Shown here piece by piece: positions 44,000 through 59,164 of a stretch of 64,000 nucleotides of DNA; the first letter of the stretch is position 1; every line of letters starts with the position of its first letter. Both the position numbers and the translations under genes were made by a program. Location of the stretch: IMG/VR virus record IMGVR_UViG_3300042147_000020, positions 124,001 through 188,000 of that record. The stretch is one strand, 5' to 3'. The notes under the pieces are model-generated. The model saw only the letters and a list, made by a program, of their open reading frames with translations, was not told the DNA's origin and searched no databases. This DNA comes from a virus.

Positions 44000-45625
44000 A
44001 TGGGCACAATCATTCTTAAGTACCCAGAAGACCCTACTGGTATCAATCCGAACAACTTGGTCATCAACGAACCTCATGACTTGGGACCTGCCCGTAACCG
44101 GGCATTCGTTCCCAACTACGGCTCCTACTTCACGGAGTCGATGATTGTCACTGAGGCGTCGACCGGTCGGGTGCTCACCAAGGGTGTTCACTACATCGCG
44201 GCACAACTGCAACAAGATGCCACTCTGGCGATGGACAAAGAGATTTGTGCTGTCGTCGTGGTAACTGATCCTGACGTTCTGGATAGCTTGCTGTTCACTT
44301 ACCAAGTTGTTGGTGGTGTGTTCAGTACTTCGGCTTCGGCCTTGGCGAAGATGATCGAGAACCTCGACATCGACGAGCGTGCAGTCGAGTGGGGTTCTGT
44401 TATTGGTATCCCTTCAGCTTTCCCTCCTGCTCCTCACTTACACGACATCGGTGACCTGTACGGTTTCGAATACCTCGTGGAAGCGTTGGATGCACTGCGT
44501 AACGCAATCCTGATTGGCGACGAAGCTGCTCATGATGAATTGCGTCAGTTCATCAACTACCAAGACGGGTTGCTCCAAGCCGCTCTGGATGACCTTCGTA
44601 GTGACTTCGAAACACACGAGAACAACAAGGCCAACCCACACGCGGTGACGAAACTCCAAGTGGGTTTGGGACAAGTCCAAGACTACGGGATTGCAACAAC
44701 CGCTGAAGCACAGGCCGGTACTGTTAACAATAAGTACATGACCCCACTGCTGACGTCTCAAGCAATCACGCAGTTGGCGTTGATCCCGCTGAACAACCAC
44801 ATCGCGGATAAAACGAACCCACACGCAACGACTAAAGCACAGGTCGGTTTGGCACTGGTAGAAAACTACCAACCTGCGACTCAAGCTGAAGCCGAAGCAG
44901 GGACTCGTAGCGATCGTTACCTCACACCGTTGACGACTAAGCAAGCCATTACCTTCCAGGCACTGGTTCCGCTGAACACGCACATCAACGATCAGACCAA
45001 CCCGCACAACACCACCAAGCTACAAGTCGGCCTCGGTAGTGTTCAGGACTACGCAATCGCGAACCAAGCCGAAGCGGAGATCGGTACCTCGAACCTGAAG
45101 TACATGACTCCCCTGCGGACTGCTAACGCCATTGCTACTCAAGCCCTTGTGCCTCTGACCACCCACATCAACAACGTCAACAACCCACACGCAACTACCA
45201 AGGCGCAAGTAGGTTTGGGTAGTGTTGATAACTACGCTACTGCCACCACGGCTGAAGCGCAAGTGGGCGCAGTGAATACGAAGTTCATGACTCCGTTGCT
45301 CACTGCTCAGGCCATCACACAACAAGCGGTTACACCGCTGAACAACCACATCAACAACCTGAGTAACCCGCACCAAGTCAGCAAGTCACAAGTTGGCTTG
45401 AGTCAGATCCCTAACGCAATCACAGCTTCACGGGCCTTCAACTCCGATGCTGCTCTGTTGACGGCCAAAGGGATGTACGACCACACAGTGTCGGCTGACC
45501 ACGATGCTCGCTACGCTCCAAAGAACACCGCTGGTGTTGACTGCTCGGTTCACTGGAACGGTTCGGGGGTGTACGTCTGGGGTGGCGGTACGTGGCGCCA
45601 GATTTGGCCTGCTCAGTGGTCGTAG
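44000..45625 (+). CDS. Second tail fibre protein with NPH repeats (541 aa)
   Basis: A paralogue of the fibre at 38814: the N-terminal domain shares YP.DPTG...N and GRVLTKGVHY-type segments, and four full plus one terminal NPH repeat start at residue 206. It lacks the long C-terminal domain and ends with a short head (SADHDARYAPKN...VHWNGSGVYVWGGG), a common tip in phage fibres. It starts at ATG 44000 with AAGGAATAGG upstream and ends directly before the radical-SAM cassette. Confidence 0.85.
   Translation: MGTIILKYPEDPTGINPNNLVINEPHDLGPARNRAFVPNYGSYFTESMIVTEASTGRVLTKGVHYIAAQLQQDATLAMDKEICAVVVVTDPDVLDSLLFTYQVVGGVFSTSASALAKMIENLDIDERAVEWGSVIGIPSAFPPAPHLHDIGDLYGFEYLVEALDALRNAILIGDEAAHDELRQFINYQDGLLQAALDDLRSDFETHENNKANPHAVTKLQVGLGQVQDYGIATTAEAQAGTVNNKYMTPLLTSQAITQLALIPLNNHIADKTNPHATTKAQVGLALVENYQPATQAEAEAGTRSDRYLTPLTTKQAITFQALVPLNTHINDQTNPHNTTKLQVGLGSVQDYAIANQAEAEIGTSNLKYMTPLRTANAIATQALVPLTTHINNVNNPHATTKAQVGLGSVDNYATATTAEAQVGAVNTKFMTPLLTAQAITQQAVTPLNNHINNLSNPHQVSKSQVGLSQIPNAITASRAFNSDAALLTAKGMYDHTVSADHDARYAPKNTAGVDCSVHWNGSGVYVWGGGTWRQIWPAQWS
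44615..45420 (+). repeat. Tandem NPH tail-fibre repeats (4 full + 1 partial)
   Basis: The same ~66-codon unit as in the 38814 fibre: H....NPH..TK.QVGL, then AEAEAG and Y(M/L)TPL. The last copy is truncated after QVGLSQIP. Confidence 0.85.
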
Positions 45626-45639
45626 TAAAAAAATAAACA

Positions 45640-45675
45640 CTCAAGGAATCCTATAAGAATTTACTTAGCCTTGAG
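45640..45675 (+). promoter_or_regulatory. Hairpin whose right arm overlaps the ribosome site of the cassette's first gene
   Basis: CTCAAGG (45640-45646) pairs with CCTTGAG (45669-45675). The right arm overlaps the GAGGG Shine-Dalgarno (45673-45677) of ATG 45686. It could act as a weak terminator after the fibre gene or limit translation of the first cassette gene. Confidence 0.35.
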
Positions 45676-45685
45676 GGATTGTGAA

Positions 45686-46195
45686 ATGTTGCGCAAGTTA
45701 GATGATTTCAAGTTTGACGGAATCACGGAGTCTACTCTACGGGTGGATGACGTTCTCGCAAGTCACTTTCCTTACGAACAGGGTTTGGTGAAGTACGTAG
45801 TAGGTGGGCGTTCGATGGACGCCCACAGTCCTTGGGACGCAGTTCAACATGAGGACTGCGTGTTTAAGGTTGAGGGTTACGATAAACTCAACCTTAAACT
45901 TTTTGACGAGTGTCGCTATCTAGCGGATCACTTCAAACATATCGGACCGGTGACCTGTCATCTGTTCAAGTCTCCTCTCGGAGCAACCAGTTTCCCAGCA
46001 CACACTGATCCTGATGACGTAGTGTTACTTATGGTTAGTGGTGCTAAGCAGTTTGAAACCGACGACGGTGTGATCACTCTCAATGAGGGTGAGATCCTGT
46101 TTATTCCCGCTGGTTCTAAACACCGAGCAATCAACACAGAGAGTTCTCTGATGTTGAGCTTTGGGTTAGAGCGTTTTCTAGTTGAGAAACTGTAG
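45686..46195 (+). CDS. JmjC/cupin-like Fe(II)-dependent oxygenase (169 aa)
   Basis: ATG 45686 with GAGGG eight bases upstream; TTG 45671 is in-frame but lacks a site. The C-terminal half has the double-stranded beta-helix pattern FPAHTDPDDVVLLMVSGAKQF, then EGEILFIPAGSKHRA. This is an H-x-D pair followed by a distal His, the iron ligands of JmjC-type 2OG oxygenases such as ribosomal oxygenases, and it conserves the G-K after them. It is the first gene of the cassette, and its TAG is followed directly by the ATG of a radical-SAM gene. It may hydroxylate a residue of the cassette substrate, but substrate identity is unknown. Confidence 0.65.
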   Translation: MLRKLDDFKFDGITESTLRVDDVLASHFPYEQGLVKYVVGGRSMDAHSPWDAVQHEDCVFKVEGYDKLNLKLFDECRYLADHFKHIGPVTCHLFKSPLGATSFPAHTDPDDVVLLMVSGAKQFETDDGVITLNEGEILFIPAGSKHRAINTESSLMLSFGLERFLVEKL

Positions 46196-47233
46196 ATGAC
46201 GTTTAAGACAATCTTTGTGAAGACCACGGGAACGTGTAATCTGAACTGCGATCATTGCTTCACCAACGGTAAGTCCGGTGACAAGACTCACTTTGATCCT
46301 GTGCAAACGGGTCAGTGGGTTAAAGAATTCATTGCTAAGTACTCACCCGACACACACCACCACTTGGAGCTACACGGCGGTGAACCATTCTTGGTCCCGG
46401 TGCGGGTGTTGACTCAGTTTGCTGCACAGTTTCGTGACTACGACAACGTGTCGATGTGTGCGAACTCTAACCTGACCTTTAAGTTGACTCCAGAGATCCT
46501 CTCATTCATTGACGAGTACTTGGGTCAACAAGTGGGCACCAGTTGGGATTACTGGATTCGCTGGAGTAATCAGAAGCAGTTTGACCTGTGGAAGAGCAAC
46601 TTAGCGGTCTTGAAAGCTCGGGGTGTCAGGATCTGTTTGAAAGTGTCTGTCAGCAGGCCGCTGGTGGCTTCTACAGCCGATTGGTTCCTCGACCAGATGG
46701 ATGCACTGGGTGTCGATGAAGTAGCCTTAGAACGCATTACAGTCGGTGGGAATTCTGTGGTCAACATGGACGTCTTTCCCGACAATGAGGAGCAGGACAA
46801 TTGGTACCTAGCCCTCTACAAGCGTTATAAGGAACGTAATCCTTCTTATGACATTAAAACCCTAGACCTGATTGAGCAGAAGCTTAAGTTAGGTATGGTG
46901 AAAGTCGACACCAATTGTCGTAATTGCGAACAAAACGTGGTGACGATCAATTCAAACGGTACCTTGGGAGGCTGCCCTAACGTAGCCACCGAACACCGAC
47001 ATGCTACCATACAAGAACCTGTGAAGGTCTTTCTGGAGTCTGACGGGCGTGTTAATGAAATAGTCAAAGAACTTGATTTCTCTGAGTCTTGTGTGCGTTG
47101 TGACGTATTCGATCTATGTGGTGGCGACTGTCACCGACTACCTTGGCAAGAAGGTCGATGTGGCGGTTTAAAGAATACCCTCCGACACCTGTCAGGCAGA
47201 TCCACACAATCCAATTTAATTCTGAAGGTGTAG
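46196..47233 (+). CDS. Radical SAM/SPASM protein 1
   Basis: 345 residues. The cluster motif CNLNCDHC (Cys14, Cys18, Cys21) binds the [4Fe-4S]-SAM cluster. HGGEPFL near residue 62 is the SAM-binding GGE motif. A full C-terminal SPASM set is present: CRNC, then NGTLGGCP, CVRCDVFDLCGGDC, and a last Cys in GRCGG, for two auxiliary clusters. SPASM proteins typically modify ribosomally made peptides (thioether, C-C or epimerisation chemistry) or proteins (anSME). It lies immediately upstream of the CH-repeat protein and is the strongest candidate for acting on it. Confidence 0.88.
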   Translation: MTFKTIFVKTTGTCNLNCDHCFTNGKSGDKTHFDPVQTGQWVKEFIAKYSPDTHHHLELHGGEPFLVPVRVLTQFAAQFRDYDNVSMCANSNLTFKLTPEILSFIDEYLGQQVGTSWDYWIRWSNQKQFDLWKSNLAVLKARGVRICLKVSVSRPLVASTADWFLDQMDALGVDEVALERITVGGNSVVNMDVFPDNEEQDNWYLALYKRYKERNPSYDIKTLDLIEQKLKLGMVKVDTNCRNCEQNVVTINSNGTLGGCPNVATEHRHATIQEPVKVFLESDGRVNEIVKELDFSESCVRCDVFDLCGGDCHRLPWQEGRCGGLKNTLRHLSGRSTQSNLILKV

Positions 47234-47237
47234 CGTT

Positions 47238-47789
47238 ATGGCTAACTTAGCAAAAGCCGATGTTGCGTATTATGCGAATGTCCTCATTCGCAACAATGCC
47301 AACGCAGGCATCTCTTGGGGTACTAACAACTATCCAGCAGGGGCTCTACCGGAATGGTTCGGTGGCACAACTGCTGGGCGTGGGGAGATCTTCGGGGCTG
47401 GTGATTTGGCAAACCCACCCACTGGTCGTCAGGTCAGTTCTGCGCTCAACAATTTTGCAGCGATGTTTGCTGCTATCCGTGCACTGCGTATCGTTATCTA
47501 CTATCGCAAGACGGGCTCTAAGAACACCACGGCGGGTGACTACACGTATGTCGCTTATGACGGCACCGCGATTGCACACACGGCTTGGGCGGTAGGTGGC
47601 GTGGGTAACGACGTACCGCCGGTACTTACCAGAGGGGTTCCAGCTCGAGCTGGGGACGTCTGGTCCTACTGTGATCGCCTCTGGCAGCGCTACAACCAAC
47701 TGTGTCGCGCGACAGCCATGACGGCGTACAACACCATTTGCCACACCAGTTGCCATGGCGCTTGCCACGGTAGTCGCGGTCGTCGTTAA
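47238..47789 (+). CDS. Candidate modified substrate/precursor with C-terminal Cys-His repeats (183 aa)
   Basis: ATG 47238 is preceded by AAGGTG, which overlaps the stop of radical-SAM 1. The first ~160 residues look like a folded protein (YYANVLIRNNANAG, an Ala-rich helix, IVIYYRKTGS). Only the last ~16 residues stand out: three consecutive Cys-His-x-x units, then SRGRR. Two other Cys lie just before (SYCDRL, NQLCRA). The split into a folded leader or virion domain plus a short Cys/His tail resembles a RiPP leader-core arrangement, with the tail as the likely modified core. Its location beside the fibres suggests it could also be a small virion protein whose tail is matured. No named family was recognised. 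Confidence 0.7.
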   Translation: MANLAKADVAYYANVLIRNNANAGISWGTNNYPAGALPEWFGGTTAGRGEIFGAGDLANPPTGRQVSSALNNFAAMFAAIRALRIVIYYRKTGSKNTTAGDYTYVAYDGTAIAHTAWAVGGVGNDVPPVLTRGVPARAGDVWSYCDRLWQRYNQLCRATAMTAYNTICHTSCHGACHGSRGRR

Positions 47790-47809: not shown

Positions 47810-48538
47810 ATGGAAAAGATTGTCACTACAGCCCCGATCCCAATTGCTGTGTTGAAGCGCAAGTTCACCGAAGACATCCACTTCGCCATCGACTACGCCA
47901 ACAGTAAGTTCAAGGGTAAGACCCTGATCACTTACCTCAGTAACCTCAACATCAAGTGCAACCTCATGTTGCAAGACGTTGAAGAAGCATTGGCGTTGAC
48001 TGCCGAATACCTCTACATTCCAGCCGTGGCTTCAATCCCCGATCTGGAAGACGTGGTGATCAACTTGCTGTTGGCCTATCAAGGTAAACAGAACTGGTTG
48101 AATTTTGACATCGACCCATTCGTTGCCGAGCACCGTGAAATCATCGAACTGTGGATCAAGCGTATCAACTCGCTTCCGCTGTTCGCCTTACACTGCTCCG
48201 GTCTGTACAAAGAACACGTCGACACCTTCCCTAAAGACGACGACAAGTCGATTGCAGGGATCAACTTCGTCCAACTGATCAAGCACCCATTGTTCCCACT
48301 GTTGGTTGCCAACATTGACGAGTGCGACTTCAGTTACAACGAAATGTGGTTCAACGAGTATGTATTTGCTGGTTCGAACCTGTTCTCGTTCTTCGCCGTT
48401 AAAGAGAACCCATTGTACCTTGGGTTGATCTCACAACTGGCACCTGATCCTGAAGACAGGGAGATTGATCAAATCTTGGCAGACACAATTGCCGAGTACA
48501 ACGCTGTCATGGGAGAATCCAATGTTCCACTTATTTAA
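47810..48538 (+). CDS. Cassette protein A, unknown (242 aa)
   Basis: ATG 47810 is preceded by AAGG; an upstream GTG at 47801 lacks a good site. The protein is soluble and mixed alpha/beta with LDF-like acidic helices. Four Cys are dispersed and do not form a metal motif. It overlaps the next gene by 17 bases and sits between the CH-repeat protein and radical-SAM 2. It may be a recognition or scaffold protein (RRE-like) or a partner subunit; no sequence motif confirms it. Confidence 0.72.
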   Translation: MEKIVTTAPIPIAVLKRKFTEDIHFAIDYANSKFKGKTLITYLSNLNIKCNLMLQDVEEALALTAEYLYIPAVASIPDLEDVVINLLLAYQGKQNWLNFDIDPFVAEHREIIELWIKRINSLPLFALHCSGLYKEHVDTFPKDDDKSIAGINFVQLIKHPLFPLLVANIDECDFSYNEMWFNEYVFAGSNLFSFFAVKENPLYLGLISQLAPDPEDREIDQILADTIAEYNAVMGESNVPLI

Positions 48539-49586
48539 CGACGTCTACGTTCAGTCTGAGATCTTCATGGCGTCGGACTTGGACCGCATCAACATCTCCC
48601 CGACGACTGGTTTTGAGTACCACAAGACTTTCGCTGATGACCCCGAGTTGACCCAACTGGGTTTCGCCAAGAGTCTTGATGACTTCACTGGGGAGAAGTT
48701 CCTAGAGCTGTTGCGTCTGGCAGCTAACAACCCCACCAAGGTCTTTGTGTTTGTCGATTCGGCAACCTACTCACGACTTTACGCGATTCAACTCAAGGCC
48801 CTGTTCCCGAATATCTCGTACGAACACTTCAAGTTCTTCTTCGTTTGTAAGAAGGCAGTGATCGACGGTCGGGCTGCTACGTCCTACGCACCAAGCATTG
48901 ATCCTCGTGCCGGGGCTAAAATCAACAACGCAGTCGTGGACGAGCTATACCACAAAGACGACTCCGAATTGATCGAAGCGATGGCTGACGTACTGAACGA
49001 CGAAGGGGTTAACCTCTCCCTCGAATGGAACGTCCTGAAGTTGTTGACCGACGGTGAGATCGGCACTATCCCTGATAAGGTCAAGAACCTCGTCAAGCGG
49101 GTAGCGCTGTCAGTAGTCCACGAGACTCTGGGTTCGGTAGGGTTCTCGGTCACTGATCCTCGTAACTGGGAGTTCTTGGGTTGTGACGCTGACACCCTGT
49201 TGGAATACGACAGTATCTTCCAGGGCTGCACCAACCTCGGTTACATGAACAACCCTGCGTTCTTGGGCAAGTCGACCTTGGGCTTGAAGATGCCGGACCA
49301 GTGGATGATCGAGTTGATCAAACAAGTCCGTGAGTTCCTCGTGTTGAGCGGTGAAGTCAAGTCGCATCTGTTCATGGGCGTGATCCTTGAACTGTACGAG
49401 GGTGGCTTCAAGTACGAAACTGCTGAGGACTGCATCGCTGCGGTAACGAGCGTGTTTGCTAACGCTGAACGGACCGTCAGTCTGCCACACAGCGACCTCG
49501 GTAAGTACGACGAGAACTTGATCCGCTTCTTGCTACGTAGCGATCGCAAAGAAATCACTGCACTCCGGGAAGGTTCGCAATGGTAG
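48522..49586 (+). CDS. Cassette protein B, unknown (354 aa)
   Basis: ATG 48522 with GGGAGAATCCA upstream; the 48465 start would lie deep inside the previous gene. The protein is helical with no metal ligands. The stop overlaps the ATG of radical-SAM 2 by seven bases, giving strong translational coupling. It has no similarity recognisable by eye, including to protein A. Tight integration in the operon suggests a role in substrate binding or assembly. Confidence 0.72.
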   Translation: MFHLFNDVYVQSEIFMASDLDRINISPTTGFEYHKTFADDPELTQLGFAKSLDDFTGEKFLELLRLAANNPTKVFVFVDSATYSRLYAIQLKALFPNISYEHFKFFFVCKKAVIDGRAATSYAPSIDPRAGAKINNAVVDELYHKDDSELIEAMADVLNDEGVNLSLEWNVLKLLTDGEIGTIPDKVKNLVKRVALSVVHETLGSVGFSVTDPRNWEFLGCDADTLLEYDSIFQGCTNLGYMNNPAFLGKSTLGLKMPDQWMIELIKQVREFLVLSGEVKSHLFMGVILELYEGGFKYETAEDCIAAVTSVFANAERTVSLPHSDLGKYDENLIRFLLRSDRKEITALREGSQW

Positions 49587-50593
49587 GATTAATACCGCTA
49601 GTGGATGTCCTCCAAGACAAAAAGGGGGCAACTAAAGAAGCTCACCTGATTCTGTTCGAGAAGTGCAACCTGCGGTGTTCGTTCTGCCACCAGGATCACG
49701 ACTCCGAAGTAGGGATGGAAGCCGAAGCCATCATGCAGAAGGCTCTCACCCTCATTGAGACTGGAGACCCAGAAGCTCCAATCGTGATCAACCTCACAGG
49801 CGGGGAGCTGTTCTCGGACAACATCCCCGATTGGATGTTCGGTTACTACCTGTCGGCTGGACAACTGCTACTGCGTCACTTCAAGCGGGCTAAGTTGGTC
49901 TGGGGTACAAACCTGATCTACAGTGACCTCTTCCGAGTAATGCGGTTGATCAGCATGCTGCGGGCCGAGGCTAGTAAAGATCAGAACGTATGTTTGGCAA
50001 CGTCCCACGACCCAGCGGGACGCTTCACTGTAGGTAATCGGGAACTGTTTCTACGGAACCTGATGGTCGTCAAGCCTTACGTTGAAACTGTGAACGTGGT
50101 GATCACTCGACAGAACATCCAGTTGTTCCTCAGTGGTAATGAGGGTAAAGAGTTTGACTGGTTGTGTCGTAACTTCGATGTGTATTTCGATCACTACATT
50201 CCCTCCGAGCGTTACCAAGAGCACCAACCGACTGAGTCAGCTATCAGTCAGCTCTACTTAGCCCTCGACAAGAAGTACCCAAACTCCTACCCCATCAAAG
50301 CGTGGAAGGAGAACCGTTTCAATGACACCACCTGTCGCTCTACGAAGATCATCAACAAAGATGGCGTAGTGACAACGTGTTGGTCCGAAGCGGGTAAGGA
50401 CTCTGTCTTGGACGAAGGGGCTGGCTTGAAAGCCAAGAACGAAGCCGAAGAGCGTTTCCTTGAGCACTACGGTTGTATGTCGTGTGAGTACTTCCAACGA
50501 TGTGGCTTACGGTGCTTCTTGCACCACAGCTTCATTGAAGGTACGACTACCGAATGTGAAATCAAAAAGATGTTCGATCAGATACTGGTCTGA
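49580..50593 (+). CDS. Radical SAM/SPASM protein 2
   Basis: 337 residues. CNLRCSFC (Cys29, Cys33, Cys36) is the SAM cluster motif and LTGGELF near residue 76 is the GGE motif. The C-terminus has SPASM-type cysteines: CRSTKIINKDGVVTTC, CMSCEYFQRCGLRC, then a last Cys in TTTEC. An RKNLT-like pre-cluster strand (ILFEKCNL) is typical. It ends before a terminator-like hairpin, so it may close one transcription unit. The role, presumably peptide or protein modification, is inferred from SPASM architecture. Confidence 0.86.
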   Translation: MVGLIPLVDVLQDKKGATKEAHLILFEKCNLRCSFCHQDHDSEVGMEAEAIMQKALTLIETGDPEAPIVINLTGGELFSDNIPDWMFGYYLSAGQLLLRHFKRAKLVWGTNLIYSDLFRVMRLISMLRAEASKDQNVCLATSHDPAGRFTVGNRELFLRNLMVVKPYVETVNVVITRQNIQLFLSGNEGKEFDWLCRNFDVYFDHYIPSERYQEHQPTESAISQLYLALDKKYPNSYPIKAWKENRFNDTTCRSTKIINKDGVVTTCWSEAGKDSVLDEGAGLKAKNEAEERFLEHYGCMSCEYFQRCGLRCFLHHSFIEGTTTECEIKKMFDQILV

Positions 50594-50620: not shown

Positions 50621-50649
50621 GTTTTATGTTCGTCATTAAGGAGTCCTCT

Positions 50650-51741
50650 GTGGACCTTATCATTAAACCCACCGTGGCGTGCAATTTCAAGTGTACTTTC
50701 TGCTCCAGTACTAAATTGTCCGAGGACCCTAAAGAGATCGTAGAGCTAGAGGAAATTGAAGCTTTCATCAAGCGGTTTCCTAACACCAACACCGTGATCG
50801 TGAACGGTGGTGACCCTTTGATGATGCCTCCGAGTTACTACTGGTCGCTGATTGACATCTTGGACCGTCATAACTGTCCTGCCACGATTGCGTTTACCAC
50901 TAACCTGTGGGCGTTCTATAAAAAGCCTGAGCTGTGGGTAGACTTGTTTCGTCATCCGCGTGTGGGCGTTGCTACTTCGTTTCAATACGGTGACAAACGA
51001 CTCAAGGGTGACTTGAAACCGTTCACCGAAGCTGAATTCTGGGCCTGCTCTGATCTGATGTTGGAGCTGGTGGGTTATCGACCGACGTTCATTGCGGTCA
51101 TTGACAAAGACAATGAAGACTCTGTACTCGACACGGTGTTACTGGCTGCTCGTATGGGAGTAGAGGTCAAGCTGAATCACGCACTGGCTTCAGGTCCAGA
51201 GGTGGACTATAAAGGTGTGGTGATGGGGAACCAAAACAAGTTCTTCACTCAAGCTGACATCTACCGACACTACTTGGCCATTTATGACGCTGGGTTAGAG
51301 GAACACGAGTACAACACTAAACAGATGACCCGTCGTCTGCGTAATGGTGCAACCACCTGTCCGTTGGCTCGTAACTGCGACCAACACATCCGTGCATTAC
51401 AACCGGGTGGTGGTAACTACTTCTCGTGTGGAGCTTTCGGGGATGACAATGAATACCCTATCGACTTTCAGCGTGAGATGTCTGGCGAGTTCTTTACTCC
51501 GTTAGAGAGTCAACCTGAACTGTTCAGTATGAAAGACGCCTGTGCTGCGTGTCCGATGTTTGCGATCTGCAACGGGTGCAAGAAGACCATTGCCGACACC
51601 AAACGTTTGGGCCTAACTGAACACCACTGTCGCACAATGAAATCGTTGGCTCCTCGGATCATCGAGGCTAACGGTCTAACGGGTCAGTTAGAACCCACTC
51701 CGTATGAAGATGAAACTCCCGTTTTGATTGCCCGAGGTTAA
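50650..51741 (+). CDS. Radical SAM/SPASM protein 3
   Basis: The GTG start at 50650 is preceded by AAGGAG at ideal spacing. An in-frame ATG at 50626 immediately abuts the terminator hairpin and lacks a site. CNFKCTFC (Cys11, Cys15, Cys18) is the cluster motif and NGGDPLMM near residue 55 is a GGE variant. The C-terminus holds a SPASM pattern: CPLARNC, YFSCGAFG, CAACPMFAICNGC, then TEHHC. Protein length is 363 residues. It may be transcribed from read-through or its own promoter after the hairpin. Confidence 0.85.
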   Translation: MDLIIKPTVACNFKCTFCSSTKLSEDPKEIVELEEIEAFIKRFPNTNTVIVNGGDPLMMPPSYYWSLIDILDRHNCPATIAFTTNLWAFYKKPELWVDLFRHPRVGVATSFQYGDKRLKGDLKPFTEAEFWACSDLMLELVGYRPTFIAVIDKDNEDSVLDTVLLAARMGVEVKLNHALASGPEVDYKGVVMGNQNKFFTQADIYRHYLAIYDAGLEEHEYNTKQMTRRLRNGATTCPLARNCDQHIRALQPGGGNYFSCGAFGDDNEYPIDFQREMSGEFFTPLESQPELFSMKDACAACPMFAICNGCKKTIADTKRLGLTEHHCRTMKSLAPRIIEANGLTGQLEPTPYEDETPVLIARG

Positions 51742-51742
51742 A

Positions 51743-52714
51743 ATGAAGCCTGTTGTCCTCTCCGTGAATCCATGGTACTTCTGTAACTTTCGCTGCTCGT
51801 TCTGTTATCTGACCGAACAACAACTCAGTGACCGTAAACTATTACCGCTAGAACGGTTGGCGGAGATGGTAGACGAAGTACAAGCCGCAGGTTACACCGT
51901 TGAACACATCGACATCTATGGGGGTGAAGTGCTGTTACTGCCCGCTGATTACCTCAACGGGATGAAGCAAGTCTTCCACGACCGAGGGATTGACGATCTG
52001 TGTCTGATCACCAACCTGTCTCTGGTGAATGACGTAGCACTCGATGATGACTACGAGTTGTCGGTGTCGTACGATTTCGAAGCCCGTGAGAAACATGAGA
52101 AAGTCTTTGACAACATGCTTGCCTTACCTCGACAGTTTAACGTGTTGAGTTTGGTGGGTCGTAAGTTCTTGGACGTCGTTACTCCAGACGAATACGTACA
52201 CACCCTGAACCTGCTCTCCCAGCTCTGGTGTGTGGAACTTAAGCCGTACAGCGAGAACCAAGCCAACGCTGACGCAGTGTCGTTCAAAGAGTTCGAGGAC
52301 TTCGTGTGGGCAGTGATCAAACACCCTGACCGTGAGTTCTATCTGGAGAACGAATCCCTGATTCGCAAAGCGGCTGAAACCAAGACTCGTAATGCGTTCA
52401 GTGACAATCACATCTACATCACCCCTGCGGGTCGTTACGCGGTACTGGAGTTTGATGCCAACGACCGTGAGTTCTTCTTGGAGCTGGATGACTTAGCTGG
52501 TTATCAAGCCTGGTGTGCACTTGAAAAAGAGCGGGTTACCGCCAATGAGTTTTGCAGTAAGTGTCAATTCAAAGGCGGGTGTTTATCCGAACACCTAAGA
52601 GACGTTAGGTCGTTAGAGAACTCCTGTAACGGGTTCCACGACCTGTTAGTGAGGTGGGTAGATGAAGGTAGTCCAACACAGACAGAGACTCGAGATCACG
52701 CTCGATCTGTTTAA
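51743..52714 (+). CDS. Radical SAM protein 4 (short SPASM/twitch-like C-terminus)
   Basis: ATG 51743, with GAGG five bases upstream, is used; the upstream TTG at 51728 would overlap the previous gene. CNFRCSFC (Cys14, Cys18, Cys21) and YGGEVLLL near residue 65 are present. The C-terminus has CSKCQFKGGC and a last CNG, a reduced SPASM-like or twitch set, so it may hold one auxiliary cluster. It overlaps the next gene by 53 bases. Confidence 0.82.
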   Translation: MKPVVLSVNPWYFCNFRCSFCYLTEQQLSDRKLLPLERLAEMVDEVQAAGYTVEHIDIYGGEVLLLPADYLNGMKQVFHDRGIDDLCLITNLSLVNDVALDDDYELSVSYDFEAREKHEKVFDNMLALPRQFNVLSLVGRKFLDVVTPDEYVHTLNLLSQLWCVELKPYSENQANADAVSFKEFEDFVWAVIKHPDREFYLENESLIRKAAETKTRNAFSDNHIYITPAGRYAVLEFDANDREFFLELDDLAGYQAWCALEKERVTANEFCSKCQFKGGCLSEHLRDVRSLENSCNGFHDLLVRWVDEGSPTQTETRDHARSV

Positions 52715-53678
52715 AGGTTGTGGTCATTCCTGCGGTGGCTGCATGATTGATAAAAGTTTGGGTGGAGACGTGAAAGATCTCCCCGAACTCTTAGCCCTGA
52801 TTCAAGAAATGGTCGGGGTGGGTTACGTAGCGTTTGACCTCGGTGTAGGACCGACGGACTACATGACTGCTGATAACCGTCTCGAAGTGATGCAGAACCG
52901 AACCTTCCAAGAGATGGCTCAACAGTTTCATCAGGTAACATTCAACGCAGCCTTCCTCGACACTAACCTGCTCAACTACGGGGTGATGTGTTACGAGATT
53001 GATTGTGCAGTACCAGACAAGCCGATTCGCTTTCTGATCCCAGCCGTACCGGCTCATTTCAAGAATGAGAAGTTCGGCTTGATGATTAAAGAAAAGTTGG
53101 AGTACATCAAAAAGAACCTGATCGTAGCTCGACTGAACGAAGCAGGTTTTGTGGTGAACTGTACACAGGAAACTGTGGACGAGAAGTTTGAGGAGCACCT
53201 ACGTAATGGGTTTGATATTGAATTCGTGGTGGACAAAGACGACATCCTCACCATCCCTTACGGACGAGCCCCAAACAAAGACTTGCTGGTGGCGCAGAAT
53301 GTTCGTCGAGTGTCTCACCGAATCAGTTCTTTCTATGCGGGGCTGAATGGGGAAGACGAACGTCGACGTAACCCTGATCTCCACTACGACACTGGGACAA
53401 TGGTTAACCTGTTGTACACCGGGGGTAAACTGTACTGGGTTCCTTTCCTCAAAGACGACTGTCCGTTCATAGACGACGACTTTGTGATCCCTCGACCTTG
53501 GACTATGGCTAACCTGTTAGAAGCCCGTAATCGCGCTCGTGATAGCTCCTTGGACTATCTGGAAGGCAGTGAGTGTATGGAGTGTCCTCACCTCGGGAGC
53601 TGTGCCGAGAAAGGCATCACCAGCATCATGCAGAAGTTGTCGATTCGGGATTGCTTAGTGGGGTTGGCCGATGTTTAA
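52662..53678 (+). CDS. Divergent radical SAM protein 5 (GPTD variant)
   Basis: CGHSCGGC (Cys20, Cys24, Cys27) has the CxxxCxxC spacing. The usual GGE is replaced by GVGPTDYM near residue 65. The C-terminal ECMECPHLGSC with a later Cys resembles a short auxiliary-cluster motif. The protein is 338 residues and is paralogous to radical-SAM 6 (GPTD, CFVNTC). ATG 52662 with GAGGTG upstream lies 53 bases inside the previous gene. The motif change suggests different SAM binding or a distinct subfamily; function unknown. Confidence 0.7.
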   Translation: MKVVQHRQRLEITLDLFKGCGHSCGGCMIDKSLGGDVKDLPELLALIQEMVGVGYVAFDLGVGPTDYMTADNRLEVMQNRTFQEMAQQFHQVTFNAAFLDTNLLNYGVMCYEIDCAVPDKPIRFLIPAVPAHFKNEKFGLMIKEKLEYIKKNLIVARLNEAGFVVNCTQETVDEKFEEHLRNGFDIEFVVDKDDILTIPYGRAPNKDLLVAQNVRRVSHRISSFYAGLNGEDERRRNPDLHYDTGTMVNLLYTGGKLYWVPFLKDDCPFIDDDFVIPRPWTMANLLEARNRARDSSLDYLEGSECMECPHLGSCAEKGITSIMQKLSIRDCLVGLADV

Positions 53679-54717
53679 CGAATATGGCGTGATCTCTGTC
53701 AACCTCACGATGGAGATCCTAAAAGGCTGTGGGTTCAGTTGTAGTGACTGTGCCGTACAGAAAGACTTCACTACCTCAGACATTCCTCCAGAGGACTCAC
53801 AGGACCTCCTAGGGCTACTGGATGACCTGCGTGTCAATGAAGTTCGTCTGTTTGAGTTCACTGTAGGTCCAACTGACTTTATCAGTGCCCAGAATGGCTT
53901 CGAGACCTTTAAGCATCCGTTAGTCTTGGGATTAGCTGAACGGTTTGAATCCATGACGTTGTCGTTGGCAATGTTGAGTGACAACCGCTTGGTGGAATTG
54001 GGTGGGGTGATTGACCGTATGATCCCCGAGAAGAAGTTCCGGTTGGTGATCCCTGCCACCCTAAAGAACTTACAGAAACCCAAGTACGTGGAAGCCTTAC
54101 GTCGCCGAGTACACTTGTTGCGCGACAGCCTCCATTCTGCGAAGTTCTACCAGATCTACTTGAACTCCAACATGGTACAGGAGAACCTGAACGAACTGTC
54201 GTACGAGACGGTGTCGAACTCAGGGGCGGCTGACTTAGGGGTTCGTACCACGTTGGAGCACGGCTTCGGTCATGCCCGAGCAGGCTTTCAAAACTTGTTT
54301 AACCGTGATCGGTTCATCTACGACCTGAAGCTCTACGTGGAGCGCAGTAAGGTGCTGAAGGACACCCGGTACCAACGTAAGCTGATTCCGATAACGACCG
54401 ATGCGTTAGAGCTGACGTACCGTGCAGGCAAGCTTTATTACACACCGGTGGTGATTGAGAAGTTCCACATCTTTGATCCGGTGTTTGAGATCCCTAAACC
54501 GTGGACAGCACAAGCGGTACTCGATTTCAAAGAGCAGTTGTACTACCGCATGTTAGAAAAATACGTGGTACACCCATTATGTAGAGATTGTTGCTTTGTC
54601 AACACCTGTGCTTTGGGGGATCATCATGTGGTCATGGATTACCTGAAACACGATGAGTGTTTGACCGACATGAAGAACCGCCACGATATGGATCGAAAGG
54701 ATACCCACGGTGAGTGA
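53671..54717 (+). CDS. Divergent radical SAM protein 6 (GPTD variant)
   Basis: Paralogue of the preceding gene, 348 residues. CGFSCSDC (Cys20, Cys24, Cys27), VGPTDFIS near residue 68, and C-terminal CRDCCFVNTC with a later DEC. ATG 53671 overlaps the previous stop by eight bases. Adjacent paralogous pairs suggest duplication, possibly with heterodimer formation or separate target residues. Confidence 0.7.
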   Translation: MFNEYGVISVNLTMEILKGCGFSCSDCAVQKDFTTSDIPPEDSQDLLGLLDDLRVNEVRLFEFTVGPTDFISAQNGFETFKHPLVLGLAERFESMTLSLAMLSDNRLVELGGVIDRMIPEKKFRLVIPATLKNLQKPKYVEALRRRVHLLRDSLHSAKFYQIYLNSNMVQENLNELSYETVSNSGAADLGVRTTLEHGFGHARAGFQNLFNRDRFIYDLKLYVERSKVLKDTRYQRKLIPITTDALELTYRAGKLYYTPVVIEKFHIFDPVFEIPKPWTAQAVLDFKEQLYYRMLEKYVVHPLCRDCCFVNTCALGDHHVVMDYLKHDECLTDMKNRHDMDRKDTHGE

Positions 54718-55138
54718 ACATAAAGAGTATCAACGCCTGTACGCCCAACTGGTCACAGATCACCCCGATGACTTTGCCAAGATGGAGATCGTCGAGTCTG
54801 AGGAGCTGGTGGAGAACGCTAAGCACTACTTCCGCGAAGCCACCTTCCCGCTGATCTATCCAGCGAAGTCAATGGCTGTCGCTGTAATCTACGCCCTGTT
54901 ACTGGAAGAGACTTACGGGTTACATCCGTTTGACTCCCTTAAAGACCCAGACCTATTCTTAGGTCAAGACCCATACTTCCGTCCGTATGACCAACATCCC
55001 CGTGAATACGATCAATTGATCTGGTGGGTGGCGGAACAACCGAACTGGAAAGAAATGGGCTGGGCACCAAAGACAGTTGAATACTTCTACCTTGAGTGCA
55101 CTGAAGCTGGTATCAGTAAAATCAACGAAGGGGTTTGA
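54710..55138 (+). CDS. Cassette protein C, unknown (142 aa)
   Basis: A GTG start at 54710 overlaps the previous gene by eight bases. The protein is acidic, rich in Tyr, Trp and Pro, with a single Cys near its end (YLECTEAG) and a hydrophobic SMAVAVIYALLLEETYG helix. No catalytic motif is visible. Its position between radical-SAM 6 and the first 2OG oxygenase suggests a helper or substrate-recognition role; not proven. Confidence 0.7.
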   Translation: MSEHKEYQRLYAQLVTDHPDDFAKMEIVESEELVENAKHYFREATFPLIYPAKSMAVAVIYALLLEETYGLHPFDSLKDPDLFLGQDPYFRPYDQHPREYDQLIWWVAEQPNWKEMGWAPKTVEYFYLECTEAGISKINEGV

Positions 55139-55139
55139 A

Positions 55140-55697
55140 ATGAAATATGTTGAACCGTGGAGCACTCAATTAGCCCACTTCAATGTCGCAGACTTAGTCG
55201 ACTTGGGTGCCTTGCGTGACGAGATCTTCAATCTACACTGTTTGACCGAAGGGGACGACCCAGGACAGAAGTGGATCACCTCTGAGTTCGTACCTGAAAT
55301 TATCCGCATGCGTGATGAACTGATTACCCCACGGGTGATTCAGTACGCCAAAGAGTTGTGGGACTACGACATCCCCAAGATTGAAGTAGAGACCTCGGGT
55401 AAGTGGATTCCTGAAGGTGAAGGACTGTTCCCCCACGTTCATGGTGGTTCGTGTATCAGTACGATCTTTTACCCCTCACCAACTAACTTCGGGTTGAGTT
55501 TTTTCGACCCTCGTTCCAATGCTGGCCGGGGTTATCCGAAAGAGATCCGTGATCGGTTCTTTAAAGCCTTCCCGATTGTTCCTGCGGCGGGGGACATTTG
55601 GATCTTCCCAAGTTACTTACAGCACAGTGTGTCGCACGTCCAAGAGAACGTCCGGTTGAGCATGCTGTGTGAATACTACTTGCGGGAGAACGTTTGA
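55140..55697 (+). CDS. 2OG-Fe(II) oxygenase paralogue 1
   Basis: ATG 55140 with AAGGGG upstream (the 55077 start would overlap protein C). The C-terminal core has HVHGGSCISTIFYP, FDPR, GDIWIFPSYLQHSV and VRLSML: an H-x-H pair, distal His and terminal Arg as in the putative 2OG-Fe(II) oxygenase family related to TIGR02466 (PF13759). Two related genes follow. All open with E.(W/P)W.T..A..NV. The likely reaction is hydroxylation of a protein or peptide residue; the substrate is unknown. Confidence 0.75.
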   Translation: MKYVEPWSTQLAHFNVADLVDLGALRDEIFNLHCLTEGDDPGQKWITSEFVPEIIRMRDELITPRVIQYAKELWDYDIPKIEVETSGKWIPEGEGLFPHVHGGSCISTIFYPSPTNFGLSFFDPRSNAGRGYPKEIRDRFFKAFPIVPAAGDIWIFPSYLQHSVSHVQENVRLSMLCEYYLRENV

Positions 55698-56263
55698 TGG
55701 AACTGTTCCGTCCTTGGCAAACCAGTATTGCCAGAATCAACGTGGCTGAGTTGTGTGACTTGGATCAGCTTACTCAAGAGATCCTAATTGTCTCTGCCGG
55801 CGGCACTGTAGCCGTCCCACAAGACGCTACACGCGACGATCCGTTCGTAGGTGGCATCGTTACTCTACGTGACGACGTAATCACCCCCAGAGTCATGGAG
55901 TACATTCGCACAGAGTACGGTCTCAACTGTGATCCTGAAACGGTTGCTATGGAAACGTGGGGGATGAACATCGCTCCCGGTAGTGACTTGGAAACACACA
56001 TCCACGGTTTGTCCAACTTCACGACGGTGTTCTACCCCTGTGAGTCAGACGCTCGCTTAGTACTGGTTGATCCTCGTTTGAATGCAGCACGAGGGTTCTC
56101 TAAGTCTTTGCGTGACCGTAACTTCGGTAACCTACGAGTTGACCCTAAACCCGGAGACTTGTGGATCTTCCCAAGCTTCGTCCCCCATTCTGTGACGTCA
56201 GTAGGTAACGAGTTCCGCCTGTCTTTGGTGAACGATTACTTCCTAGACCCCACCCTCGATTAA
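55697..56263 (+). CDS. 2OG-Fe(II) oxygenase paralogue 2
   Basis: It starts at ATG 55697, overlapping the previous TGA by one base (TGATG). The core HIHGLSNFTTVFYPC, VDPRLN, GDLWIFPSFVPHSV and FRLSLV keeps the same ligands as the first copy. Length 188. The N-terminal half differs from its paralogues (an inserted VSAGGTVAVPQDATRDD segment), which suggests a different binding partner. Confidence 0.75.
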   Translation: MELFRPWQTSIARINVAELCDLDQLTQEILIVSAGGTVAVPQDATRDDPFVGGIVTLRDDVITPRVMEYIRTEYGLNCDPETVAMETWGMNIAPGSDLETHIHGLSNFTTVFYPCESDARLVLVDPRLNAARGFSKSLRDRNFGNLRVDPKPGDLWIFPSFVPHSVTSVGNEFRLSLVNDYFLDPTLD

Positions 56264-56274
56264 GAGACCTGAAC

Positions 56275-56829
56275 ATGGAACTGATTCAACCTTGGAACAC
56301 GTCGATCCTTAAAGCGAACGTGTCCCACATGTGTAACGTGGAAGCGATTGCCGATGAGATCCTGTCACTACACAGTCTCTCCCCACAACAGTCCACCACG
56401 CAGTACAAAATCACCCCAGAAGAGTTCCCAGCTCTGTGTGACTTCCGTGACCGGGTGGTAACTAACCTGGTGAAAGAATTCGTCAAACAAACGATGCGTT
56501 TCGACCTGACACAGTTCACCGTCGATACGTTCGGTAAGTGGTTCGAGAAAGGCATGGATCTTTCTCCGCACACTCACGGTAGCACTGGGATCACCTCTGT
56601 GTTCTACCCGGCTGACTACAAGTCGGGAATGACCGTGTACGATCCGCGTGGTAATGCTTGCCGTGGCTACCCGCGTCAAATCCGGGACGACTACTTCGCT
56701 CCCTTTTACGTCTACCCCAAGGCTGGTGATTTGATCATCATGCCGTCGTTCTTGCAACACTACGTCCCCACCGTAGAAGACGACCTGCGTCTGTCGTTGA
56801 TCAACGATTACATGTTCCCAAGCGTATAA
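56275..56829 (+). CDS. 2OG-Fe(II) oxygenase paralogue 3
   Basis: 184 residues with HTHGSTGITSVFYPA, YDPRGN, GDLIIMPSFLQHYV and LRLSLI: the same H-x-H, distal His and Arg set. Closest in pattern to copy 1. It is the last gene of the cassette and ends five bases before a terminator hairpin. Confidence 0.75.
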   Translation: MELIQPWNTSILKANVSHMCNVEAIADEILSLHSLSPQQSTTQYKITPEEFPALCDFRDRVVTNLVKEFVKQTMRFDLTQFTVDTFGKWFEKGMDLSPHTHGSTGITSVFYPADYKSGMTVYDPRGNACRGYPRQIRDDYFAPFYVYPKAGDLIIMPSFLQHYVPTVEDDLRLSLINDYMFPSV

Positions 56830-56908: not shown

Positions 56909-57586
56909 ATGTTTGAAGTCGTGGATAAGGGCGCTATTAAAGAGAAACAGCGCAAGTTGAAAGAGCTGGGCCTGTATGAAGGGAATGTGGACGGTATCTG
57001 GGGACCTCTGAGTCAAGCGGCTTGGGATAAGACTCAAGGTGACAAAGTTGTGTCTGCTCCGTTTGATACCACTCGGATCATCTGGGCCACCAAGGTCTCC
57101 AAAGAGTTCATCCTCAAAGTACGGGACATCGCCAAACGTCTTGAGATGCCCACAGAGGGCTCTAACTGGTTGATGGCGTGTATGGCCTTCGAGACCGGTG
57201 AAACCTTCTCACCGACGATCAAGAACGGTGCTGGCGCTCCTTACTACGGACTGATCCAGTTCGGTGAAGCAGCAGCCAAAGATTGTGGCACTACGGTGGC
57301 CGCTCTGGTAAAGATGACTGCTGAGCAACAGCTCGACTACGTATACAAGTTCTTCAAGCCGTACACCGGTAAGCTGAAGACCCTCAGCGACGTTTACTCT
57401 CGCATCATCTGGCCAGTGGCCGTGGGTAAGTCAGAAGACTACGTGATCTTTGACACGAAGGTACGTCCTACTGCGTACGTTCAGAACAAGGGTCTGGACA
57501 TCAACAAGGACGGCCTCGTCACCAAAGCTGAATGTGCGGCGAAGGTCCAAGAAAAATACGTGCGTGGACTGAAGTTCGTCGCCTAA
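56909..57586 (+). CDS. Endolysin, lytic transglycosylase type (phiKZ gp144-like)
   Basis: 225 residues. The first ~45 residues (IKEKQRKLKELGLYEGNVDGIWGPLSQAAW) are a peptidoglycan-binding domain. The catalytic domain has MACMAFETGETFSP with a likely catalytic Glu95, then YYGLIQFGEAA, as in phiKZ gp144 (Glu115 in that protein). phiKZ gp144 has the same domain order. It cleaves the peptidoglycan glycan chain at lysis. ATG 56909 lies after a candidate late promoter and is followed after 12 bases by a probable inner-head gene. Confidence 0.88.
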   Translation: MFEVVDKGAIKEKQRKLKELGLYEGNVDGIWGPLSQAAWDKTQGDKVVSAPFDTTRIIWATKVSKEFILKVRDIAKRLEMPTEGSNWLMACMAFETGETFSPTIKNGAGAPYYGLIQFGEAAAKDCGTTVAALVKMTAEQQLDYVYKFFKPYTGKLKTLSDVYSRIIWPVAVGKSEDYVIFDTKVRPTAYVQNKGLDINKDGLVTKAECAAKVQEKYVRGLKFVA

Positions 57587-57598
57587 TGGAATCTATAC

Positions 57599-59164
57599 AT
57601 GAGTAAGCTAGCCGCCTACCTCCCCTCGATGGAGGAAGAACAATACGAACCAGAAATCCGTGACGATCACACTGAGTTCTCTCAGTTCGACGTGACTACC
57701 ACTGGTGCTGAAGTTGACCAAGCACTCGCCGACCACAGTACCACTGGTGAGATCATCGCCACGTTGGAAAGTATCCTCGACGACATCGAAGCTACTGACA
57801 GTCTGACTCCGCAGTCGCGTGTGTTTATCGGCCATTCGATTCAGTCGGTACAACACCGCATCGGCTTGGTTGTTCGCACGCCTTCGATGGAAGCGAATGA
57901 TGAAGACGGTCGCCAGATCTCCATGGAAGGGATCGCCCAAGGGTTGGCTAAACTCTGGGAAGGCACTGTTGAACTGATCCGTAAGATCCTTCGCAGCATC
58001 CGTGACTTCTTCGCCACGATCCTCGGCTTCGGTAAACGTAAAGAGAAGCGCATCAAGTATCAACTGGAGAAGGCCAAGGAAGGTGGCAACGATGCGTCGA
58101 TCTCCAAGCTGGCTGAGAAGAACCTGCTCAAGCACTTGAAAGACGTGTCTTCGGTACAGAAGGTTCTCGACAATCTGGTAGCTACGCCACTGGGGAAGGA
58201 ACGTCCAGAGCAACTGGTTCTACTGTCTCCAGCGTCAGCCCAGATCGTGGTGCGTGAAAGCGATGGTCAGGTGGACAGTTCTCGTCCAATGACGGTCAAC
58301 GGTCAAGACATCGTGGCCATGCGTAAGAAAGACGTGCAGGCCGTGAGTCATATGTCCTTGGGTCAGGTCAAACACGCTCTGATTACTGCCATGGTGGTTA
58401 ACGGTGGTCGTACGTTCCTTACTAAGGAGAAGGACTTCGTCTTGATGTCTCACGAAGACGTCAACGAGATGGTGTGGGACACTGCGTTCCGGGGTAAGGA
58501 AGCCCGTCAGAAAGGTAAGGAGCTGTCAGCACTGCTGATGAAGATTGCTAATAAAGCTGAGAAAGCTTTTACTAGCGTCGATGCTTTTAACCGACACAAT
58601 GTCAACATCTCAGACGAGTTGTTAAACGCCACTCGCATTGAGCGCGCCGCTGTCTTCAAGCTCTTCCGTGAGTTCGTTGGTAAGGGCGACATGGTACCGT
58701 TGGGTTCAGCAATGTTGCGCGTAGTGGATCATCATCCTGAACACTTGCAGATTGCCAAGTTCGATCACATTCCTGTGGTCAGCGAGAACATCGGTAAAGT
58801 CGTGAAGATCAAGTTCCCACAATACGGGGAAGTGAAGAAAGCGGCTGACGGTATCGTGACGGTTACACTGTTGAGTAACTTCAACGGTTCAATCGACGCT
58901 GCACTCAAAGGCTTCGAGGACGTACTGAAAGTCTACGAGCGGTTACAAGCGTGGGCGATTAGTAATGCGAAGGGTGATAACATCATCCAACGTCAGGTCA
59001 GTAGCTGCATCCGTGAAATGTACGACGAGCCAGTGAAGTACTTCAGTTCGTACATCCGTGCGGTTGGCGTAATGGAAACAGTCGTGATTGGTTGGGGTGA
59101 TTCTATCACTCACCCGTTGAGCAAGCTGACAGATTCCAAGAACCTGATGGCTGAACTCGCCTAA
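57599..59164 (+). CDS. Putative inner-head protein with N-terminal SME processing sites (521 aa)
   Basis: ATG 57599 follows the endolysin gene. The N-terminal ~110 residues are acidic and carry three Ser-Met-Glu motifs (10-12, 96-98, 108-110), matching Ser-x-Glu sites cut by phiKZ-type prohead protease. A helical, amphipathic region starts right after the last site (GIAQGLAKLWEGTVELIRKI). Proteins of this type with removable propeptides form the inner body of jumbo-phage heads. No catalytic motif. Assignment is inferred from the cleavage motifs. Confidence 0.6.
   Translation: MSKLAAYLPSMEEEQYEPEIRDDHTEFSQFDVTTTGAEVDQALADHSTTGEIIATLESILDDIEATDSLTPQSRVFIGHSIQSVQHRIGLVVRTPSMEANDEDGRQISMEGIAQGLAKLWEGTVELIRKILRSIRDFFATILGFGKRKEKRIKYQLEKAKEGGNDASISKLAEKNLLKHLKDVSSVQKVLDNLVATPLGKERPEQLVLLSPASAQIVVRESDGQVDSSRPMTVNGQDIVAMRKKDVQAVSHMSLGQVKHALITAMVVNGGRTFLTKEKDFVLMSHEDVNEMVWDTAFRGKEARQKGKELSALLMKIANKAEKAFTSVDAFNRHNVNISDELLNATRIERAAVFKLFREFVGKGDMVPLGSAMLRVVDHHPEHLQIAKFDHIPVVSENIGKVVKIKFPQYGEVKKAADGIVTVTLLSNFNGSIDAALKGFEDVLKVYERLQAWAISNAKGDNIIQRQVSSCIREMYDEPVKYFSSYIRAVGVMETVVIGWGDSITHPLSKLTDSKNLMAELA

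Follow-up and report, generated by a model that had tools for sequence, protein, structure and literature searches.

A jumbo phage was found to encode a protein, which may be a virion component, ending in three Cys-His-x-x units followed by RGRR, and its gene lies among six genes for radical-SAM enzymes. Interestingly, the same tail recurs together with the same enzymes in many diverse phages and in the chromosomes of predatory bacteria, so that the tail is probably chemically modified, likely to make contact with the cell under attack, although both the modification and its chemistry are inferred. The window analysed here is a stretch of 64,000 nucleotides corresponding to bases 124001-188000 of a 238.8-kb virus record (IMGVR_UViG_3300042147_000020). 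Within it, the CDS at 47238-47789 starts 4 bases after the stop codon of a radical-SAM/SPASM gene, and it is followed by two conserved partners, five more radical-SAM genes, a small conserved protein, and three 2OG-Fe(II) oxygenase genes, with a cupin gene at the head of the run. The features of the region are as follows:

44000-45625 (+): upstream fibre-like protein with repeated NPHxTTKAQVGLGxVxNY units and no significant Pfam match
45671-46195 (+): cupin/JmjC-like protein, conserved upstream of rSAM1
46196-47233 (+): rSAM1, radical SAM/SPASM enzyme, with CNLNCDHC at residues 14-21 and a SPASM CxxCx5C at 299
47238-47789 (+): CHxS-tail (CH) protein, 183 aa, with a predicted body of about residues 1-166 plus an exposed tail
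47739-47786 (+): C-terminal (CHx[S/A])3-RGRR tail, with the stop codon at 47787-47789
47810-48538 (+): conserved partner protein (phrog_20767), 242 aa, the most constant neighbour of the CH gene
48522-49586 (+): second conserved partner, of unknown function
49580-50593 (+): rSAM2, radical SAM/SPASM
50626-51741 (+): rSAM3, radical SAM/SPASM
51728-52714 (+): rSAM4, radical SAM/SPASM
52662-53678 (+): rSAM5, divergent radical SAM (CGHSCGGC, CMECPHLGSC), with no NCBIfam match
53671-54717 (+): rSAM6, divergent radical SAM (CGFSCSDC, CRDCCFVNTC), with no NCBIfam match
54710-55138 (+): small conserved cluster protein (phrog_20737)
55140-55697 (+): 2OG-Fe(II) oxygenase a (PF13759)
55697-56263 (+): 2OG-Fe(II) oxygenase b, a paralogue of a
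56275-56829 (+): 2OG-Fe(II) oxygenase c, a paralogue of a

All six radical-SAM proteins keep CxxxCxxC near the N-terminus and a SPASM-type CxxCx5C near the C-terminus. The four Pfam radical-SAM matches detected in the whole 239-kb record are all located in this cluster, whereas rSAM5 and rSAM6 are too divergent for the Pfam model, although their homologues in Pseudomonas phage DT01 are annotated as radical SAM.

Translation of 47238-47786 gave 183 aa ending TICHTSCHGACHGSRGRR, with the tail segment ...CHTSCHGACHGSRGRR organized as CHTS-CHGA-CHGS-RGRR. This confirms the preliminary description of three Cys-His tetrads ending in a basic motif, except that the start proposed there (47741) is 2 bases off, as the 16-residue tail begins at 47739. 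The CH..CH pattern occurs only once in the six frames of the window. The preliminary description, which proposed that the tail is a core peptide or a metal-binding tail rather than part of a fold, was also supported by all the sequence tests that it suggested: repeated CHxx tails exist in large numbers of other proteins, the tail is conserved while the body varies, and radical-SAM genes are directly adjacent. Sequence alone does not decide between core peptide and metal-binding tail, or whether both apply, but the array of four to six radical-SAM/SPASM enzymes favours modification. Neither the probable presence of the protein in the virion nor the sharing of the system with predatory bacteria had been foreseen in that description.

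The tail was read at this place in five cultured phages: Pseudomonas phage DT01 (CHTSCHTSCHSARGRR), Burkholderia phages FLC6 and SURPRISE13 (CHSSCHTSCHGSRGRR), Agrobacterium phage Atu_ph07 (CHSSCHASCHNSRSRR), and Sinorhizobium phage Phosso (CHTSCHASCHSSRSRR), in each case beside homologues of rSAM1, the cupin, and the 47810 partner. The window and FLC6 bodies are 22% identical over a pairwise alignment, while their tails agree at 13 of 16 positions. In the Burkholderia phages, two dihydrofolate-reductase-like genes were found in tandem in the middle of the radical-SAM cluster (positions 14216-15429 of the FLC6 locus, L003, and 14001-15178 of locus L006). In contrast, a DNA-level search of phages with the 8.7-kb region gave no match, and a search for related loci with the whole CH protein gave none, as the bodies are too divergent. 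Searches by tblastn with a short tandem type and with a 190-aa type of CH protein also gave no match among isolated phages, so many carriers are uncultured.

In order to know how widespread the tail is, a degenerate DNA pattern for (CHxx)3-RxRR followed by a stop codon was used, which gave at least 120 stretches in viral contigs, where about none is expected, and 19 stretches in a scan of one genome each of 84,980 bacterial and archaeal species. Among 150 distinct proteins, the positions not forced by the pattern revealed that the underlying unit is C-H-x-S, in the form (C-H-x-S)3-R-G-R-R-COOH, with Ser at unit position 4 in 136, 118, and 135 of them and Gly between the first two Arg in 135, the middle unit of the window (CHGA) being a minority variant. 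In addition, 176 distinct full proteins showed 166 different tail DNA sequences but only 88 tail peptides, using both Cys codons, both His codons, and all six Arg codons, so selection is on the protein. Of 143 tail loci, 134 hold radical-SAM ORFs of the window's families, and most of the rest are short or end-truncated stretches, one being a chance hit. In 22 loci with enough flanking sequence, three to six radical-SAM ORFs were present in each, and the 47810-type partner in all. Three genome hits, from Frankia, Pseudoalteromonas, and Bordetella, showed none of the cluster's ORFs and were taken as chance.

As these loci were partly chosen by the tail pattern, a control that does not force the motif was carried out starting from rSAM1. 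Of 385 relatives found, 80 were kept and 77 had enough downstream DNA, of which 72 presented the exact tail in a following ORF and three more presented variants (two units; four units without the Arg end; a third unit reading CN). In the remaining two, the next ORF is another enzyme-sized one, and one of these loci (L225) is on the same contig as a tandem pair of CH genes (L081). Overall, the variants detected in loci L163, L171, L037, and L180 comprise two units (CHSNCHINRSRR), four units with a different end (CHSSCHYSCHSSCHGDGPGNGGGV), four units with RSRR, and a third unit reading CN. A second type of carrier was also found (L007, L030, L048, L072, L080, L089, and others), with two tandem CH genes of 124-140 aa and a different body, followed by rSAM6-type enzymes instead of being preceded by rSAM1. 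Bodies are about 25% identical and fall into ten groups with no BLAST link at 1e-3, while 63 aligned members, from loci partly chosen by the tail pattern, share invariant C168, H169, C172, H173, C176, H177, R180, R182, and R183. Nevertheless, the loci in viral contigs are related to one another and cannot be considered independent.

An AlphaFold2 model built on the 63-row alignment showed a mean pLDDT of 89, with the tail at about 53-56 after the last strand, so the tail is not part of the predicted fold. The body showed no PDB fold match at E<=0.001, but it matched the DT01-length protein A0A8A6C8P8 (178 aa, 37% identical) and Atu_ph07 gp170 (296 aa) in a library of viral models (BFVD), so bodies without sequence similarity can share the predicted fold. 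Three long proteins of a single virus, Myoviridae sp. ctijX18 (A0A8S5USJ8, A0A8S5USV2, and A0A8S5USJ7), share this fold too. The 47810 partner was predicted with high confidence (pLDDT 92) and also matched no PDB fold at E<=0.001, and no RRE-like recognition domain was identified, as judged from this model.

Location in the virion is suggested indirectly by a published proteome of Atu_ph07, in which 131 virion proteins were identified by ESI-MS/MS, most of them encoded in clusters CDS 31-76, CDS 170-215, and CDS 284-329 (PMC6102473). In the matching numbering, gp215 is the major capsid protein and gp170 is the CHxS-tail protein, while gp171 (rSAM1) and gp172 (cupin) lie inside that range. A cluster that opens exactly at gp170 suggests that gp170 was detected, although this inference rests on the cluster boundary and not on the list of detected proteins itself. 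The position of the gene supports it, as it follows fibre-like or virion structural genes in DT01, FLC6, and the window. In addition, a phiKZ-like internal head protein (PF12699, E 2.5e-14) lies downstream in the window (57599-59164), placing the phage near the phiKZ group.

Besides contigs that look viral, the genome hits that carry the enzymes are Bdellovibrionota, by title or by phylum sampling. The 47810 partner was found in 15 of 291 Bdellovibrionota genomes and in 0 of 299 Pseudomonadota genomes, both being samples of their phyla, with nine known positives serving as control. These clusters are chromosomal and not phage contigs binned by mistake, as housekeeping-like genes flank them and one lies on a 4.15-Mb contig. 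Five further genomes presented shortened or altered tails such as YCHGNFPPPCHGSRGRR and YCHSNHCSHSNHGSRGRR, showing that the first CH and the SRGRR end are the most constant parts there; some have two CH units and a spacer, so three units are not essential. Interestingly, in nine of nine Bdellovibrionota genomes checked, a match to the phage-fibre chaperone domain S74 lies within about 16 kb of the cluster, out of 2-19 S74 matches per genome, although this linkage may partly reflect shared ancestry of the region. In the seven examined with Pfam, S74 was found in the neighbour, and a type IV prepilin N-methylation signal was detected by Pfam in five and is visible by eye in the other two (loci L227 and L265). 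Such prepilin-Peptidase_S74 genes lie beside the cluster in the chromosomal loci L227-L232, L241, L264, L265, and L268, each next to a protein of ~190-200 aa of unknown family. A B12-binding radical-SAM protein, not seen in the phage clusters read, was present inside two predator clusters (L228, 4571-6310, and L232, 13568-15280), suggesting an added methylation step. S74 fibre proteins of Bdellovibrio are displayed on the predator surface, and one mosaic adhesive trimer (MAT) fibre was shown to bind prey glycans (PMC10769870); that paper mentions neither radical SAM nor pilin, and the neighbours found here are short pilin-S74 chimeras. A FastTree phylogeny of rSAM1 mixed predator and phage sequences in several places, some with low support, suggesting more than one exchange.

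Taken together, we favour with reasonable but not full confidence a RiPP-like maturation system whose substrate is a folded, fibre- or baseplate-associated surface protein. In this hypothesis, four to six radical-SAM/SPASM enzymes, a cupin, and, in many phages, 2OG-Fe(II) oxygenases, guided by the conserved partner at 47810, would modify the flexible (CHxS)3-RGRR tail while the protein is made in the infected cell, and the modified tail would stay on the particle and contact or breach the envelope of the bacterium being attacked. Predatory Bdellovibrionota would use the same system beside a pilin-S74 fibre for the same purpose. That the tail is under strong protein-level constraint, is exposed in the model, and is tied to radical-SAM/SPASM enzymes is clear, whereas its role as their substrate is inferred, no modification having been measured. 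The families most often matched by rSAM1 homologues are peptide- or protein-modifying SPASM enzymes (DarE, anSME, PapB, DynA, YhhB, HxsB), and the closest solved relatives by sequence include an anaerobic sulfatase-maturating enzyme and radical-SAM peptide enzymes. However, these matches are weak and rSAM1 is far below every curated cut-off of a full-length maturase family, so no chemistry can be assigned. As a guess, each H-x-S could be cross-linked by rSAM1 as a three-residue His-x-Ser cyclophane, with the Cys residues changed by other enzymes, as several different enzymes per locus suggest more than one kind of change, giving a rigid, possibly metal-binding tip. The contact of this tip with the victim's surface rests on gene neighbours (fibres in phages, pilin-S74 in predators) and is the weakest link. 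About as likely as not is the broader reading that phages and predatory bacteria, two unrelated kinds of killers of bacteria, share and exchange a dedicated radical-SAM pathway that builds a chemically new tip on a surface protein used to engage or breach the victim's envelope, that is, a ribosomally encoded natural product carried on the outside of a virion.

Other explanations were considered less likely. The tail could be an unmodified metal-binding tip, in which paired Cys/His ligands from an oligomer hold Fe, Zn, or Cu, as HxH motifs seem to do in spike and fibre tips of other phages, the radical-SAM enzymes acting on something else. CH pairs at period 4 are good ligands and the invariance of Cys and His would fit, but this unlikely alternative does not explain the near-obligatory linkage to four to six radical-SAM/SPASM enzymes, the conserved Ser positions, or the RxRR end. 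Equally doubtful is that the tail is a precursor cut off to yield a small redox cofactor or peptide, as PqqA or MftA, with the body as a mere leader or carrier. Radical-SAM/SPASM enzymes of this broad group include mycofactocin-type maturases, and the RGRR end could be a processing or recognition signal; however, the 183-aa protein has a confidently predicted folded body, unlike short precursors with a removable leader, bodies reach 364 aa, no dedicated protease family was seen among the cluster proteins scanned, and the Atu_ph07 homologue bounds the virion-protein cluster.

More remote still is the possibility that the enzymes act on host or phage targets unrelated to the tail, such as nucleotides or glycans, and that the tail protein is a co-transcribed scaffold docking the enzymes through its Cys/His tail. 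In its favour, rSAM5 and rSAM6 match no characterised family and 2OG oxygenases in phages are often assigned to other roles (PHROG category), but rSAM1 and the tail co-occur almost without exception across diverse phages and chromosomes, and most rSAM1 matches are peptide modifiers. An ordinary structural protein with a random Cys/His-rich tail has no support beyond a single-sequence view and is refuted by the invariance of the tail while bodies diverge. Finally, a c-type cytochrome was rejected, as the spacing is CxxxCH and not the CxxCH of the haem motif.

Regarding known systems, the His-Xaa-Ser (Hxs) radical-SAM system (TIGR03977/TIGR03978) also has repeated H-x-S in a target protein and two or more radical-SAM maturases. 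Here, however, each H-x-S is preceded by Cys, and the setting is a phage or a predator, with cupin, oxygenases, and unrelated partner proteins. Furthermore, rSAM1 scored 23.8 bits against the HxsB cut-off of 370 (with weak hits in 12 of 15 homologues, best E 5e-15), and rSAM2, rSAM3, and rSAM4 scored 14.8-23.3 bits against the HxsC cut-off of 267.9. No NCBIfam hit to the HxsD partner appeared in the ten window proteins scanned, although it was not searched for specifically. The CXXX-repeat target system (TIGR04115) shares Cys at period four in the presumed target, but its maturase is not among the matches of the window rSAM1 at E<=1e-5, only 3 of 15 homologues match it weakly (best E 9.6e-8), and the target here is a folded surface or virion protein, as predicted, with conserved His and an RxRR end. 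Cyclophane-forming systems (triceptides; YhhB, FxsB, GrrM), which probably act on aromatic/His-x-x tripeptides, are among the weak best matches of the window's rSAM1, at 48.4 of 445 bits for YhhB and 43.1 of 370 bits for FxsB, and differ by the several radical-SAM enzymes per locus found here and by a protein tail that is probably retained instead of a small secreted peptide.

The CH protein matches no Pfam or NCBIfam family and only a PHROG of unknown function. Members of the cluster are held in phrog_1802 (radical SAM), phrog_35144, phrog_20767, and phrog_20737, each listed separately, mostly as of unknown function, and not recognised there as one system. No family, solved fold, or paper describing the system was found, the literature search being limited to PMC open-licence papers, and papers on carrier phages list the enzymes as miscellaneous genes. 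Radical-SAM peptide chemistry is known from small secreted products, peptide-derived cofactors, and a few enzyme activations. What appears to be new is the system as a whole and not its enzyme class, and the novelty would be smaller if the modification were a standard Hxs-type reaction. A conserved multi-enzyme pathway aimed at the exposed tail of a phage surface protein, found in jumbo and ordinary-sized phage contigs and in Bdellovibrionota chromosomes, would be a new class of virion modification and a new link between phage infection and bacterial predation, and would give a function to phage genes now scattered under radical SAM, 2OG oxygenase, and hypothetical annotations.

In addition to the genes described above, the protein encoded directly after the oxygenases of the window (56909-57586) showed a weak peptidoglycan-binding match at its start and an EF-hand-like LDINKDGLVTKAE stretch, and its DT01 counterpart is annotated as a transglycosylase.
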